The translations under genes and the position numbers were made by a program. The notes under the pieces are model-generated. The model had not been told where the DNA came from, made no database searches, and saw only the letters and a program-made list of their open reading frames with translations. A DNA stretch of 64,000 bases. It comes from Chitinophagaceae bacterium. GTDB lineage: Bacteria > Bacteroidota > Bacteroidia > Chitinophagales > Chitinophagaceae. Location: positions 62,001 through 126,000 of the forward strand of contig CANGIY010000004.1 in the NCBI GenBank assembly GCA_947454235.1. The letters run 5' to 3'. Each line of letters starts with the position of its first letter. Within the stretch, counting starts at the first letter, position 1. Below, piece after piece: positions 1 through 5,796 of the stretch.

Positions 1-1469
1 TCAACAAAAGCAAATCTCCTGCGTATCGCGTAGTCAATATGCCCTACACTACGATCAGCAGTATTCATAGTCCCAATGATATACAAATTTGGAGGCATTA
101 TGAGATCATTAGTACCTCCATCAAGTGTGTACAGTGATTTCACTTTTTCTCCTCGATATTCCAGAGCATATATTAATTCACCGAGAACTGAGGGCAGATT
201 GGCGCGGTTGATTTCGTCAATGATTAATACGTAATTATATTTTATTGCGCCCGATTCGTAATTTCGCCAAGCAACGTCAGCTAGGTCACCAAGCAGCCTA
301 TTCACTGTCGAATAAGTAACATCCCCATCATTACTTTTAGCACTTATGCCCCTTACGAAATCCTCATAACCGTAAGATGGATGGAACTGAACCAGTTTAA
401 TATACGGCTCAGAAACCTTTTCGAGAAGGTACTTTGTGATTCCTACCACGTAGCTTCCCTGACCACCTTCAGTAAACTCAGACACTAGTCGATCGTCATT
501 CCAATTTAAACAACAGTTTTTAATGTGTGTGTAGTTTACTGTTCGTTCACTTTCGGCTCCTTTTGGAAGTATTCGAATAGCTGGATTGATATTAGAGATG
601 ATGGCAAAAGTGTTTGAGTTTTCCGGAGAGTTAATAGTGAGGCCTTTAACAATATGTGAGGCGATAAACTGATCATCTACCAGAGCCCTTACCTCCTTTG
701 ATAAAATATCCTTTGCGAGTATTTTTGCAAACCTTGTTTTTCCTGTTCCTGGAGGACCCTGAAGGACTATTTGTTTTTTTTGAAGCAGTAAATCAACGAT
801 TTCCTTTTTCATAATTTCTGGTTGAATATTTTTAATATTTTCTTCTAATTTGGTTACTAACGACCTGCTGCACCAATAAACTTTATTCGAAAGGGTCGAC
901 CGTTCTCTTTTTGTATTTTTATTGCCATCCCATTTAAATACAAGCCTTGAAAAATATCGCTTGTCTATCTCCGCTCCATTTGAATTTATGTAAGCTTTTA
1001 TAAGATTGACTAGATCATGCCAATGATTGTTATTTTCTAAATTGTGGTAATACTGTGCTGATCTTCCCTCAGCGGTAATTTGTTGAATTTTACCTTTTTG
1101 ATGATTGTTTGCCAATGTTAGTAGAAATTCCCTGAATTTGTTATCGCCATTAACAATTATTTCCGGGATTACAATTGATTCAAGATTGCTATCTCCACTA
1201 CCTTGCGGCCAGTCATGTACTTCATTGTCCAACCAAAAAACTGGGGCGTCAAAGTATTTGATTATTTCTCGCTTTCTTTTTACATTACTTAAATTTGAAA
1301 TATCTTTGTAATATAACTTGTCGGTGGTGAATGATTGTCCGTTATAGTTGTATGTCACTACCAGGACCAATTGACCATTTACGCGTTCTTCGTTGGTAGT
1401 TACATCATTTTCTTCAATGCTAAGAGCATTGAAGAAATCAATAAATTCTATCAGTGTCGCATTTTCCAT
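1..1469 (-). CDS. McrB-like AAA+ ATPase/GTPase, type IV restriction motor subunit (3' end outside window)
   Basis: Reading leftward from ATG at 1469 gives 489 codons with no stop before the window edge, so the C-terminus is missing. The AAA+ core shows Walker A GPPGTGKT (about residues 238-245), Walker B LIIDEINRAN (D418/E419) and the motif GTMNTADRS (about residue 470). The NTAD signature is typical of McrB, where it goes with GTP use. About 230 N-terminal residues precede the motor; this is where McrB proteins carry the modified-DNA reader, but I do not recognise the fold. McrB forms a ring that drives the McrC nuclease on DNA with modified bases. The gene starts 13 bases after the HNH gene, so it is probably the third gene of that operon. 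A mcrC-like gene would be expected just beyond base 1. The family is clear; the exact system is inference. Confidence 0.85.
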   Translation of the reverse strand, partial: MENATLIEFIDFFNALSIEENDVTTNEERVNGQLVLVVTYNYNGQSFTTDKLYYKDISNLSNVKRKREIIKYFDAPVFWLDNEVHDWPQGSGDSNLESIVIPEIIVNGDNKFREFLLTLANNHQKGKIQQITAEGRSAQYYHNLENNNHWHDLVNLIKAYINSNGAEIDKRYFSRLVFKWDGNKNTKRERSTLSNKVYWCSRSLVTKLEENIKNIQPEIMKKEIVDLLLQKKQIVLQGPPGTGKTRFAKILAKDILSKEVRALVDDQFIASHIVKGLTINSPENSNTFAIISNINPAIRILPKGAESERTVNYTHIKNCCLNWNDDRLVSEFTEGGQGSYVVGITKYLLEKVSEPYIKLVQFHPSYGYEDFVRGISAKSNDGDVTYSTVNRLLGDLADVAWRNYESGAIKYNYVLIIDEINRANLPSVLGELIYALEYRGEKVKSLYTLDGGTNDLIMPPNLYIIGTMNTADRSVGHIDYAIRRRFAFV

Positions 1470-1482
1470 TATTTAAAATTGT

Positions 1483-2532
1483 TCAGCCAGGCAATTTTAT
1501 TCCAAGTTGTGTGCAAATATCTCTTTTCAACTTGCCGATGGCATGATGGTTTATTTCATTTTTATGCATTGGAACATCTTGATTCTCAAGAATATCATCG
1601 ATACTTGTGTCAGGGAGCACAAATATGAATGGGAATTGCCGCTTAACCCCCAATGAATATCTTGGACTGTGGTTGTTTATTTTGTTTACAAGCTTATACA
1701 GTGCCCTTTTGTGTGACTGTTCATAACGCTGTATAATTTCAAAATCTTTTAACGCTTGGTCCGTTGAATTTGAAGCAAATTTTTCTTTGTAGGTGATTTT
1801 AATTTCGCCTAAATTTTTGGGCTTGATATTACTAATTTCAAAATTGTAAAAGTCATCAAATCTTTTGTGAAAAGGATTAAAATGGTGGTCAATATTGAAG
1901 TCTTTTTCTCCTTTTAAATATGCGTTACATGGGGAACAACCTGGTATCAAATTGAAAAAAGATAACCCAAGATAAGGATGCCGACTTCGAGGATAGAAAT
2001 GATCGATTTGAAGTAGTGCCATATCTGCCTGTTTACCCGTCAAACCACTTGTCCGAACGATTACTGGAATAAGGTTCTCATTGCAGTACGGACAATAGAC
2101 TAGGTTGAGATCTCTACAGTTCGCCTCACATTCTGGGTGATCTCTATACAGTGCCTTGTAGGCAAACACATGCTTAACAATTTTACCGAAATCATTCAAT
2201 GACGCTTGTTCATAGTTGACGCTATTGCACAAAAAGTTAATTCCAAAACCAGAGCTAATTTCATTAATTATTTGTTTCAAAACCCCGGGTCTGCCGGTTA
2301 TGACGCGCTTAAGATTTTTATAATTATTGCCGAGAAAATAGTCCCAAAATCTAACTCTATCGTTAAAGGCAGCTGTATTATCTATATTTCGCCTCGTTTT
2401 TATTCTTCCAATTAACGACGAGGTAGCATGATAGTTAACTCCATCAGCATTAATTGGTGCTATCAAATTATCATAGTGCCTTGCTGCTACTAAATCAACA
2501 TCGACGATAGCATTATCTTGAACTTTGATCAT
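1483..2532 (-). CDS. HNH endonuclease, PtuB-like (Septu-type defence)
   Basis: This 349-aa protein has an HNH fold: zinc knuckle CPYC (C147/C150), the catalytic pair QIDHFYPRS (D177, H178), then NLIPGCSPCN (N194, C199, C202) and downstream HH/H residues around 216-222. This zinc-bound HNH layout is that of the PtuB nuclease of Septu and of the HNH partner of some retrons. About 140 N-terminal and 120 C-terminal residues have no recognised domain. The start codon lies inside the 3' end of the ATPase gene (20-base overlap), which implies translational coupling and a stoichiometric partner. No reverse transcriptase is visible nearby, so a stand-alone Septu-like pair is more likely than a retron. 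The protein is longer than I would expect for a minimal PtuB. Confidence 0.8.
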   Translation of the reverse strand: MIKVQDNAIVDVDLVAARHYDNLIAPINADGVNYHATSSLIGRIKTRRNIDNTAAFNDRVRFWDYFLGNNYKNLKRVITGRPGVLKQIINEISSGFGINFLCNSVNYEQASLNDFGKIVKHVFAYKALYRDHPECEANCRDLNLVYCPYCNENLIPVIVRTSGLTGKQADMALLQIDHFYPRSRHPYLGLSFFNLIPGCSPCNAYLKGEKDFNIDHHFNPFHKRFDDFYNFEISNIKPKNLGEIKITYKEKFASNSTDQALKDFEIIQRYEQSHKRALYKLVNKINNHSPRYSLGVKRQFPFIFVLPDTSIDDILENQDVPMHKNEINHHAIGKLKRDICTQLGIKLPG

Positions 2533-4303
2533 CTACCAAACGTTTAATTTGCAACTTAATGATATCCTCCCCTATACTATTCAATAATGTAAAATCAGCT
2601 TCTTTGAACGGAATTTTTGAAACTGCTTTAGTTGCTAATATGTTGATTTTTTTAGCAGCAAAACGGCTTATCAAATTGCCGTCTAAAAAGAAAGCATCAA
2701 GATATAATTCACCTATATTTCCACCGAATGTTTCGCCCTCAATTTTCTCATTGGGTATTACATTACAAAGACCATTTTGGTCTTTTTTCAAAAAAATTAG
2801 GTTATTCTTAGTCAAGTCTGATATCAAAAATGGAGAATGTGTAGTTAGAATTAGCTGAATCTCCTTCCCGTTAAAAATTTTCGGTAACGCTTCGAGTAGC
2901 TTATATAGATATTCAGTCTGCCACTTAGGATGAAAATATAAATCCCCTTCATCTAATGTAATTAATATGCTTCCGGACTTGATGTCGTTTTTAATGGAGT
3001 GGAACCTACTGAAAAGATTTAAAAATGCTTTATGTCCGGAACTTATACCATTCCATTCAATTGCGTAATCTAAATTACTGCCGGTTGAGGCTCTTAAATA
3101 TCTATAAATGAATGATTCTATCTCAGGGTTGTATTCAGAACGAAATTGTATTTTTCTATTTGAGTGGGTTCCTTCATGTTGTTTTTCAACGCCATAATAT
3201 TCAAATCTACCTAAGTCAGACAAAAACATTGCTTTCTCTATAGCGTATGGATATTCTGCATCGATATAACGTGAAATGTCATTAGTGATTACCCCGTGAA
3301 TTTCATTTATTCTGGCATCCTTTAATTGCTCTAAACATATCTTATCAAGTTCCTTTCTCAGTCCATTCTTTCCGTCATTTTGTTTTGAGAATTCTTCGAA
3401 TTTTAGAATCCTCAGTTCTTGATCCTTATTAGTTTCTTCGGTCCTAAAGTCTCTCCCAACCTGTGGCGCAAATTCATTTATAATAAAGTCAATATAGAGA
3501 AGAAAAGCGGTCAAATAGTATATAGATTTCGAGGATTGATTGTCTGTTATCTTTTTTCGAAAACTGACACAAAATCTTGTTAGCTCAGAATAATCTTCAT
3601 CCAATATGGTAGCCATTTTTCGGTCAAACGCCTTTGAACGGGTATAGATGTAACTCCAATTTGGGGAAGTCAGATTAACGTGTGTGGGTCTTAAATTAAA
3701 TGGCAATCGATCCGTCACAAGACCCTCTTCTTTTTGAAGGAAGTCAAATTCCGAACTTTTCATGAAAAGAATTTGATTTTGAATTTCCTTTTTAAACTTA
3801 GTCATTATGCCTTCACGATATTGATTTTGAATTTGTGTATTAGTTGAAATGTCGTAAACCTTCTTGCCAAAATCGTGTCGTCGGCCATCAAAAATATTGG
3901 AGCAGTAAATCGCTTCTACGTAAGTTTCATAATCGTAATTTATATACGTAAGATTATCATTTAAATTGCTCTTAATGGTTTGGACAAGGTATGTGACAAG
4001 GGTAAATCTATCATTTCCACAAAACACCATGAAAAATGGCTCGGCAATCTTCGTATTGCCTTCGCACAAAGCATAATTTATTAGTTCCAGAACATTCGTT
4101 TTTCCAGACGCATTCTGACCAACTATTGCTGTAACATTTGTTATCGCTGGGTTTTCAAAGAAATTATCTATCCATTTTTCATTGGGTCGAATTTCTAAAA
4201 ATGACCGTTCTTTATCGTAGTTGAAAATATATTTAGAGGAGATGTTGAAACCTTGTTCCACAATATTCCTAAATTTTTCAACCCATATGTATGCTAACTC
4301 CAT
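2513..4303 (-). CDS. AAA/ABC-type ATPase, PtuA-like (Septu-type defence)
   Basis: This 596-aa ATPase belongs to the RecF/OLD-like group. It has Walker A GQNASGKT (residues 62-69), an ABC-like signature ISSGHKAF shortly before Walker B ILITLDEGD (D451/E452), and an H-loop LTTHSP (H489). The insert between residues 90 and 420 is long and helical. No TOPRIM nuclease domain follows, unlike OLD proteins, and the short C-terminal tail fits PtuA, which relies on a separate HNH nuclease. In Septu, PtuA senses phage infection or nucleotide state and controls PtuB. It is the first gene of the three-gene minus-strand operon. The start at 4303 follows an AT-rich promoter-like region with no clear TAnnTTTG box. 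The ATPase assignment is secure; the Septu assignment rests on the gene pair. Confidence 0.82.
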   Translation of the reverse strand: MELAYIWVEKFRNIVEQGFNISSKYIFNYDKERSFLEIRPNEKWIDNFFENPAITNVTAIVGQNASGKTNVLELINYALCEGNTKIAEPFFMVFCGNDRFTLVTYLVQTIKSNLNDNLTYINYDYETYVEAIYCSNIFDGRRHDFGKKVYDISTNTQIQNQYREGIMTKFKKEIQNQILFMKSSEFDFLQKEEGLVTDRLPFNLRPTHVNLTSPNWSYIYTRSKAFDRKMATILDEDYSELTRFCVSFRKKITDNQSSKSIYYLTAFLLYIDFIINEFAPQVGRDFRTEETNKDQELRILKFEEFSKQNDGKNGLRKELDKICLEQLKDARINEIHGVITNDISRYIDAEYPYAIEKAMFLSDLGRFEYYGVEKQHEGTHSNRKIQFRSEYNPEIESFIYRYLRASTGSNLDYAIEWNGISSGHKAFLNLFSRFHSIKNDIKSGSILITLDEGDLYFHPKWQTEYLYKLLEALPKIFNGKEIQLILTTHSPFLISDLTKNNLIFLKKDQNGLCNVIPNEKIEGETFGGNIGELYLDAFFLDGNLISRFAAKKINILATKAVSKIPFKEADFTLLNSIGEDIIKLQIKRLVDDQSSR

Positions 4304-4615: not shown

Positions 4616-4623
4616 TACTTTTG
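4616..4623 (+). promoter_or_regulatory. Bacteroidota -7 promoter box (TACTTTTG) for hmgA
   Basis: The sequence matches the Bacteroidota -7 consensus TAnnTTTG. It ends 15 bases before the ATG at 4639, so the transcript would start near 4628-4630. That makes the in-frame TTG at 4621 impossible as a start. The -33 element is not clear: only a T-rich stretch is seen at 4591-4597. Confidence 0.5.
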
Positions 4624-4638
4624 ACCAAACCAAAATCA

Positions 4639-5796
4639 ATGCCGCATTATTATTCGTTAGGCGAAATTCCGTCTAAACGCCATGTGCAGTTTCGCAGGCC
4701 CGATGGTGGCTTGTATTCTGAACAATTGTTCAGTACTGAGGGCTTTTCTTCTGATTATACATTACTATACCACGTTCACCCGCCAACAAAAATCTTACGT
4801 ACTGCCGAGCCGGTAAATGTTGCTCCGGTTGCTGCTACCGATAATATTTTGAAGCACAGAAGCTTCATGGGCTTTAAGGTGAAACCTGAAGCCGACTATT
4901 TGAAAAGCAGGAAGGTGGTATTGTTCAATAACGATTGCCATATTTCTCTGGCGGCACCTACGAAGGGGCTTACGGGCACCGAGTTTTTCAAAAATGCCGA
5001 TTGTGATGAAGTGATTTTCATACACGAAGGCACCGGTGTTTTAAAGACGCAATACGGTCAAATCAAGTTTGGCTATGGCGACTACTTGGTAATACCGCGC
5101 GGCAGTATTTACCAAATACATTTCAACGACGAAAACAATCGTTTGTTCATTGTTGAATCGCCAACACCTATCGTATTCCCTAAACGTTATCAAAGTAAAA
5201 ACGGACAACTGCTGGAGCATTCACCATTTTGTGAGCGCGACATCAGGAAGCCATCTAATCTTGAAACAATCGATGAAAAAGGTGAATTCCTGATCAGCGT
5301 GAAAAAGAAAGGATTGATGTATCCGTTCTGGTACGAAAGTCACCCGTTTGATGTTGTGGGTTGGGATGGTTGCTTGTATCCGTATGCATTCAGCATTCAC
5401 GACTTTGAACCAATTACAGGTAGGGTACACCAGCCACCGCCAGTGCACCAAACATTTGATTCGCACAATTTTGTGATATGTTCGTTTGTGCCAAGGTTAT
5501 ATGATTATCACCCGAATGCGATTCCTGCGCCATACAACCACAGCAATATCGATAGCGATGAGGTATTGTACTACGTTGACGGAGATTTCATGAGCCGTAA
5601 ACACGTTGAGCGAGGTATGATAACGCTGCACCCAGCGGGTATTCCACACGGTCCACACCCCGGTGCGGTTGAAAAAAGCATAGGCGCAAAAGAAACGAAG
5701 GAGTTAGCCGTAATGGTAGATACCTTCCATGCGCTAAAAATGGCAGTTGATGCAGTTGAATTAGAAGACGAAACATACATTTCAAGCTGGTTATAA
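4639..5796 (+). CDS. hmgA: Homogentisate 1,2-dioxygenase
   Basis: This cytoplasmic non-heme iron enzyme opens the ring of homogentisate to maleylacetoacetate in tyrosine/phenylalanine breakdown. The 385-aa protein has a two-cupin layout. Near the C-terminus, YNHSNIDSDEVLYY (H301, E308) and LHPAGIPHGPHPG (H331, H337, H340) supply the likely iron ligands. At 385 residues it is shorter than the roughly 430-445 aa of proteobacterial and animal enzymes, and I believe this is usual for the Bacteroidota form. I chose ATG 4639 because the promoter box overlaps the upstream TTG. The gene for the preceding pathway step, hpd, follows after 38 bases, so the two probably form an operon. Confidence 0.92.
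   Translation: MPHYYSLGEIPSKRHVQFRRPDGGLYSEQLFSTEGFSSDYTLLYHVHPPTKILRTAEPVNVAPVAATDNILKHRSFMGFKVKPEADYLKSRKVVLFNNDCHISLAAPTKGLTGTEFFKNADCDEVIFIHEGTGVLKTQYGQIKFGYGDYLVIPRGSIYQIHFNDENNRLFIVESPTPIVFPKRYQSKNGQLLEHSPFCERDIRKPSNLETIDEKGEFLISVKKKGLMYPFWYESHPFDVVGWDGCLYPYAFSIHDFEPITGRVHQPPPVHQTFDSHNFVICSFVPRLYDYHPNAIPAPYNHSNIDSDEVLYYVDGDFMSRKHVERGMITLHPAGIPHGPHPGAVEKSIGAKETKELAVMVDTFHALKMAVDAVELEDETYISSWL

Follow-up and report, generated by a model that had tools for sequence, protein, structure and literature searches.

Does a pair of genes for an ATPase and an HNH nuclease, lying directly before the gene of a McrB-type motor, form one defence machine with it, or do these genes share an operon and work apart? 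The question is raised by the left end of a 64,000-base stretch of a Chitinophagaceae genome (hereafter the window: bases 62001-126000 of contig C4, CANGIY010000004.1, in the source genome G000, which comprises 4.17 Mb in 47 contigs). We consider it probable that the locus is one transcription unit with two separately working defence modules, and that it is a restriction operon of the immigration control type, devoid of hsd genes, in which the pair fills an exchangeable slot. Gene order, spacing, protein families, motifs, scattered McrC partners, fixed polarity and the varied cargo of related operons are the observed basis of this reading, while co-transcription, the biochemical activities and the layered action described below are what we infer.

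With open reading frame (ORF) calls and the DNA flanking the window (locus L002; the letters L, G and C designate loci, genomes and contigs throughout), a run of four genes was found on the minus strand, in the order ATPase, HNH, McrB and McrC.

4303..2513, minus strand: ABC/SMC-type ATPase of the PDC-M62A family (PtuA-like), 596 amino acids (aa), first gene of the operon
2532..1483, minus strand: HNH nuclease of the PDC-M62B family (PtuB-like core), 349 aa, assigned by family match
1469..1 and on past the left edge (L002:15688-17469), minus strand: McrB, 593 aa, assigned by AAA_5 and Protein Data Bank (PDB) matches
about -1606 to -305 relative to the window (L002:14394-15695), minus strand: McrC, 433 aa, assigned by PF10117
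4304..4620, no strand: spacer of 317 bases between the operon and a divergent gene at 4621..5796 (plus strand)

The initial annotation had described a 20-base overlap of the ATPase and HNH genes and a McrB gene 13 bases further on the same strand, and the ORF coordinates bear this out. The first two ORFs share positions 2513-2532 and the following gap covers 1470-1482, the two-gene cargo thus standing directly before mcrB. It had also proposed reading the DNA left of base 1 for mcrC, and the gene is indeed there: mcrB continues for 312 bases beyond the window's left edge, and its last 8 bases are shared with mcrC, whose product matches PF10117 at an E-value of 1.1e-28 (100.6 bits for a cut-off of 23.9). 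The 317-base spacer is presumed to be the promoter site.

This neighbourhood is not random, because eight other loci repeat the succession of type I genes, pair and mcrBC, always in the same polarity. A scan with an ATPase alignment of one genome per species, across 84,980 species, gave 344 relatives; the 80 best were retained. Seven of these 80 loci (L085, L086, L087, L093, L095, L099 and L103) carry type I genes, ATPase, HNH, McrB and McrC on one strand, with a varying order of HsdR, HsdM and HsdS; an eighth locus with the same arrangement (L217, genome G283) comes from a separate sample of the phylum. In the 80 loci, some 0.72 Mb of sequence was read to either side of the ATPase; all McrB and McrC matches fall downstream of it and all Hsd matches, bar one HsdM, upstream, in each case on its strand. 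The neighbour profiles were self-built from few seeds, and their HsdR matches may include other helicases.

These regularities bear on an alternative in which the modules of a defence island came to stand side by side, sharing transcription at most by accident and having no functional or selective link. Random placement would be expected to use both sides and both strands, yet all seven McrBC sets are downstream on the same strand; under an island model with four equal placements, seven of seven in the same placement has a probability of 6e-5, or of 1e-3 to 4e-3 for four to five independent events. A uniform placement would predict about 0.008 such McrC neighbours per 80 loci, a rough figure that assumes genomes of 4.1 Mb and ignores defence islands. 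The gaps of 9-20 bases between HNH and mcrB in L085, L093 and L217 also speak against mere proximity. Pointing the other way, most opened loci show one module alone, the co-occurrence of the modules at the genome level is not significant, and the nearest ATPase relatives of the window show no McrBC in view. All in all, an accidental neighbourhood seems quite unlikely to us.

Judged from the trees and their labels, inheritance and new assembly both contribute to the recurrence. In a tree of 51 McrC proteins (those of at least 250 aa, taken from differently chosen samples), the nine pair-linked rows, window included, occupy nine separate places. The nine changes are all forced by branches with values of at least 95 in the Shimodaira-Hasegawa-like approximate likelihood ratio test (SH-aLRT), and the pair label is clustered no more than shuffled labels, for which the mean is 8.5 changes. 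The nearest McrC often goes with other cargo, as for L095 next to L230 (a true PtuAB), or with nothing, as for L093 next to L210; no pair lies directly upstream of the nearest McrC of L087 (L209) or of L217 (L208). The clade of the window's McrC comprises L075, the window, L073, L085 and L074, L073 being unlabelled with its contig cut inside McrB. The ATPase tree has 96 rows, best matches shorter than 400 aa being left out together with L002 (the window's copy), L016 (copy of L091), L019 (copy of L109) and L219 (copy of L104). There the window belongs to a group of seven (SH-aLRT 96) whose six other members (L080-L084 and L128) show no McrBC in view, and the seven composites belong to a neighbouring group of 17 (SH-aLRT 99). 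L217 stands elsewhere on a long branch; the program warns of long branches, those of L217 and L025 included.

Going further, the position before mcrB was examined from the side of McrC. Apart from the window's own, the phylum sample has 55 McrC places; 36 of these were opened (35 and that of G280), mostly the best-scoring ones. Nine of them have hsdM and hsdS upstream on the same strand: L198, L203, L206, L210, L215, L217, L230, L231 and L274. L236 is a possible tenth, with hsd genes farther away and one HsdS on the opposite strand. Between hsdS and mcrB, the nine operons hold the following.

L206, L210 and L215 (three of the nine): nothing
L217: M62 pair
L230: PtuA and PtuB (E-values of 1e-106 and 2.6e-59)
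L198: retron III-A-type reverse transcriptase and PRTase-CE (2.5e-128 and 2.1e-25), with further ORFs
L203: two GmrSD-type genes, then HsdR
L231:6796-8348: set of two genes (320 and 193 aa), no PADLOC match at 1e-5
L274:7146-9193: set of two genes (180 and 494 aa), no PADLOC match at 1e-5

From these contents, the position before mcrB holds different modules, several of them of abortive type. The two-gene sets of L231 and L274 are candidates for new defence modules. Elsewhere, the pair stands beside type I genes without McrBC in view in L091 (a contig of G044, cut short), L109 and L111, and HsdR-type matches without HsdM were found in L092, L097, L104 and L140. In L091:6885-9783 (G044:C168), hsdRMS, ATPase and HNH are followed by proteins of 419 aa (PD-(D/E)XK-like), 236 aa and 232 aa (DUF3800-like), as named by reading their sequences; with these extra proteins, several modules may occupy the slot. 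G044 was considered as a further composite, the pair being in the hsd operon on C168 and McrBC beginning at the edge of contig C124. The outer 600 bases of both contigs share no 21-mers, and G044 is therefore not counted among the composites.

Several observations weigh against our reading. At the level of whole genomes, the initial annotation had asked to test for co-occurrence above chance, and none was detected. Two samples were used: one of 195 genomes of the family (HNH relatives at E-values of at most 1e-3, McrB relatives at most 1e-20), where the HNH relative is present in 12 genomes and the McrB relative in 13, and one of 395 spread genomes of the phylum (M62A at most 1e-30, best three candidates per genome scored), where M62A is present in seven genomes and PF10117 in 50 (56 places), all counts including the source genome. 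With the source genome excluded, HNH and McrB co-occur in two of 11 genomes in the family sample (p 0.14), and M62A and McrC in two of six in the phylum sample (p 0.16). The gap between HNH and mcrB is wider in five of the eight composites, at 183-706 bases (for L095 measured from the first HNH piece, several frames being interrupted), and a small ORF lies in it in L086 and L099. On the ATPase tree, the label for hsd plus McrBC is clustered, with five changes for a shuffled mean of 7.8, so that part of the recurrence is inheritance. Both trees are quick ones with SH-aLRT values in place of bootstraps, the McrC rows were differently sampled, and some 'no pair' labels come from short contigs (L197, L202, L213, L214 and L228). 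The window's operon has no adjoining hsd genes: its upstream neighbour is the divergent, non-hsd gene, no hsd gene lies upstream on the operon strand, and the three N6_Mtase loci of the source genome are all on contigs other than C4. For want of hsd genes beside the operon, it is the relatives that place it in the slot architecture. Finally, the function of every protein is predicted from sequence.

The opened loci bear on the first proposal of the initial annotation, a composite system in which pair and motor act together. As one machine, ATPase, HNH, McrB and McrC would be obligate partners, the motor recruiting the ATPase-HNH nuclease. The gene overlaps are consistent with this, as is the fact that, window included, nine different McrC backgrounds have the pair immediately ahead of mcrBC. 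Yet in the opened loci each half usually stands without the other: 73 of the 80 related ATPase loci show no McrBC in view, the 11 HNH loci opened in relatives from the family sample (one on a cut contig) show no McrB or McrC in view by phmmer, and among the 395 genomes M62A and McrC are adjacent in the source genome and G283 only. Most opened McrBC loci are likewise without the pair. Moreover, the McrC and ATPase trees disagree, and unrelated cargo fills the same slot. Since most opened loci hold only one half, we rejected the obligate composite as the leading explanation and regard it as very improbable. The three genes rarely occur together and McrBC is regularly found without the pair, an outcome that the initial annotation had itself taken as the mark of independent neighbours. 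Neither module seems to need the other, because their co-occurrence is not significant and they are mostly found apart. The second proposal made at that time, a compact operon with shared transcription, fares better: the spacing supports it, and the recurrent order with fixed polarity marks the neighbourhood as non-random.

How would two such modules defend one cell? By analogy with its family, McrB, an AAA+ GTPase, would read DNA through its N-terminal domain and drive McrC, a PD-(D/E)xK nuclease, to cut modified phage DNA. The M62 ATPase could keep the HNH nuclease inactive until infection alters the state of the ATPase. Once freed, the HNH protein might attack nucleic acid, either tRNA, as does E. 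coli PtuAB, or DNA, and thereby stop the infected cell. McrBC would then be a first layer directed against modified DNA and the pair a second, abortive layer. In related Bacteroidota, the slot before mcrB, between hsdRMS and mcrBC, would take up exchangeable modules of abortive type, the source genome having the version without hsd.

An alternative is that the pair guards the restriction enzymes, staying quiet as a fail-safe while McrBC or HsdRMS works. Inhibition of restriction by a phage product, or signs of infection such as DNA ends or altered nucleoside triphosphates, would set it free to cut tRNA or DNA and so abort the infection, in the manner of PrrC in EcoprrI. The presence of the pair inside restriction operons in a fixed order, in a slot that also takes other abortive-type modules, is in line with such a coupling. 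Precedents appear in the literature, with PrrC responding to Stp and RloC to DNA breaks (PMC12707154) and with tRNA-Tyr cutting by PtuAB (PMC13096335, PMC11555353). Most M62 loci show no restriction genes in view, however, and the pair thus seems not to need them; the scattering of the McrBC partners over the McrC tree argues against a specific protein contact. We hold this guard function to be unlikely, and prefer layered defence as the explanation for the repeated occurrence of the pair in restriction operons. On a wider scale, we would advance only tentatively, as a rather doubtful generalization, that Septu-type pairs (M62 and PtuAB) were repeatedly recruited before mcrB as restriction fail-safes, acting as suicide nucleases on tRNA or DNA once type I or type IV restriction is blocked. 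The arrangement hsdRMS-pair-mcrBC would then be an immune operon of three layers whose last resort can be exchanged.

Among the closest known counterparts is the immigration control region of E. coli, ordered hsdR-M-S-symE-mcrB-C in strain K-12. Both share type I and type IV genes with accessory modules as a theme; the window differs by the lack of adjoining hsd genes and by its cargo, a Septu-like pair. In enteric bacteria, this region is described in PMC12707154 as combining type I, type IV and toxin-antitoxin genes, with brnAT, symE-symR and rpn named. PMC11090510 reports a frequent association of the K-12 McrBC branch with co-directional type I genes, possibly forming an operon; the terms 'HNH' and 'Septu' are absent from its main text. 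Accessory genes coupled to restriction, a concept proposed in 2012 (PMC3506569), are discussed in PMC12707154, PrrC and RloC among them: PrrC is embedded in a type IC locus and triggered by the T4 peptide Stp, and RloC is triggered by DNA breaks. DarTG2 sits between hsdS and hsdR (PMC12255303), and TgvAB lies within a type I operon (PMC11411939). Septu embedded in Hma systems is mentioned in PMC12255303, as is the term 'guilt-by-embedding'. DarTG2, TgvAB and PrrC are likewise defence modules inside a restriction operon near hsdS. Their place is inside the type I locus or flanked by hsd genes, whereas the window's pair is directly before mcrB and that of its relatives between the hsd genes and mcrB.

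The embedding of defence modules is therefore already known in print. Among the matches listed, we found no published description of an M62 or Septu pair placed either immediately ahead of mcrBC or between the hsdS and mcrB genes; the arrangement may be described in the 2024 preprint of Payne et al. on embedded defence systems. What seems new is a Septu-like module that restriction operons can exchange; it looks like a swappable part of such operons and not a new single machine. Bacteroidota would thus offer a defined place, from the type I genes to mcrB, where varied defence modules are kept (the M62 pair, PtuAB, a retron-type reverse transcriptase and GmrSD). This slot provides a route to new defence genes and lends itself to testing whether restriction enzymes are guarded by suicide nucleases. 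For annotation, M62 or Septu and McrBC should here be counted as two systems until shown otherwise.

The pair itself is, by its sequence matches, PDC-M62, a relative of Septu. The ATPase matches the PADLOC model PDC-M62A (PDLC04734) at 1.3e-90 over residues 1-592 of 596, and the HNH protein PDC-M62B (PDLC04743) at 2.6e-42 over residues 71-346, both well beyond chance; the ATPase also matches AAA_15 at 1.9e-14. Septu models match partially, PtuA at 3.6e-20 for the ATPase and PtuB at 5.6e-9 for the HNH protein. The 'Septu-like' label of the initial annotation stands at the superfamily level, PDC-M62 being the exact match. The two proteins miss the NCBIfam cut-offs for PtuA and PtuB: 57 of 500 bits for NF041760 and 15 of 150 for NF041761, both being models of retron Ec78 effectors, and 16 of 52 for TIGR02646. 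With an ATPase profile of 20 rows, the effector ATPases of retrons Ec83 and Ec78 came first in the PDB (3.1e-15), and the PtuA entry 8ee4 was found at 1.1e-11. According to PMC11811056, PADLOC calls of PDC-M62 often coincide with DefenseFinder calls of Septu in the Bacillus cereus group.

As in Septu (PtuAB), the ABC ATPase motifs and the HNH core (D-H...N...C-x-x-C-N) are intact. The ATPase has a Walker A motif G62-x-N64-xx-G67-K68, a signature S421-S422-G423, a Walker B motif D451-E452 and H489, all invariant across 20 aligned rows except S422 (at least 90%). In the HNH protein, the zinc and catalytic residues C147, C150, D177, H178, N194, C199, C202 and N203 are invariant in 31 aligned rows. 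For E. coli PtuAB systems, PMC13096335 and PMC11555353 report cleavage of tRNA-Tyr upon infection and a defence that depends on the ATPase motifs as well as on the H-N-H residues. An ABC ATPase followed by an HNH protein is common to the window, Septu and the PtuAB effectors of retron Ec78/Eco7. The window's HNH protein has 349 aa versus 212-250 for the PtuB models matched.

With the PDC-M62 candidate system of PADLOC-DB, the likeness extends to both proteins, the two-gene order, the overlap and a normal HNH length; only A and B models are among the matches, and the window's McrB and McrC match no PDC-M62 model. In 77 of the 80 related loci, an HNH gene follows the ATPase gene on its strand within 400 bases. 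The two genes overlap in 65 of these 77, with a median spacing of -8, and a short overlap is thus typical of the family. The initial annotation had called the 349-aa HNH protein long and suggested that it may carry an extra sensing part. The length is not special, because the family median over the 77 loci is 344 aa. In a model built from 31 sequences (mean predicted local distance difference test score, pLDDT, of 90.8), the CPYC...CxxC core is preceded by roughly 140 N-terminal residues that are helical and confidently modelled. A Foldseek search of the PDB and BFVD with this model yielded nothing usable, which carries no weight against the HNH assignment, and the HNH profile matched no PDB chain. 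Beside M62 pairs, genes for TcmP (three-Cys-motif partner) and of the 'phage Gp37/Gp68 family' recur, in L031:328-2224 by annotation and in L084:8248-9832 and L109:7094-8718 by look-alike sequence.

McrB and McrC resemble the McrBC of E. coli K-12, with an AAA+ McrB bearing NTAD followed by a McrC with PF10117 and D...DxK. McrB matches AAA_5 at 5.3e-17, above the cut-off, and McrB chains are its best solved relatives in the PDB (E. coli McrB, 3.4e-29, residues 348-575); the NCBIfam equivalog cut-off for E. coli McrB is missed at 103 of 637 bits, a score computed on the window part of the protein only. Its Walker A (238-245) and signature MNTAD (468-472) are kept in 10 aligned rows, as are D331, D344 and K346 of McrC, which are invariant there. 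CoCoNuTs are taken to belong to the McrBC branch with an NxxD deletion, and a CoCoNuT-type McrB was ruled out: with its complete NTAD motif, the window's McrB is outside that branch. In PMC11090510, one McrBC branch is marked by the deletion in NxxD. The N-terminal 205 or so residues of McrB gave no Pfam match before residue 207, no relatives in 72,556 plasmid records and, own copies aside, none among 7,616 collected ORFs; a single-sequence model of the fragment has a pLDDT of 37.6, too low for use.

Among mobile elements, relatives of the HNH protein were met on plasmids, with 31 records all below 60% identity; in the seven opened, no McrB or McrC was among the annotated genes, their annotation being incomplete. 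Among 50,697 phage records, one partial HNH match was found, and viral contigs gave no close relative of HNH or McrB with single-protein queries, which reach close relatives only.

The operon of the window is flanked by the divergent gene at 4621..5796 (plus strand), which we take from its sequence to be a homogentisate dioxygenase (hmgA), and, about 0.6 kb beyond McrC, by a converging gene that we presume, again by reading it, to be rimO. Through the genus, among 11 genomes searched, source included, hmgA was found in 10, two of them having only a 60% paralogue, and rimO in nine. For a possible insertion of the operon as one unit, no simple empty site was found: in the two congeners where both genes share a contig (G198:C25 and G202:C14), they are about 20 and 62 kb apart in reversed order. 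From this difference in spacing and order, the chromosome region around the operon has been rearranged.

Further observations concern other type I operons. One in the source genome (L251:4223-7028, G000:C26) has another cargo behind hsdS, with two extra genes between HsdS and HsdR, one of which (467 aa) reads by eye like a caspase/CHAT-type protease. In L266 and L267, near-identical type I operons occupy both ends of one contig (G293:C1), with hsdS pieces on both strands and an ORF of 350-382 aa among these pieces; this could be an invertible specificity locus.

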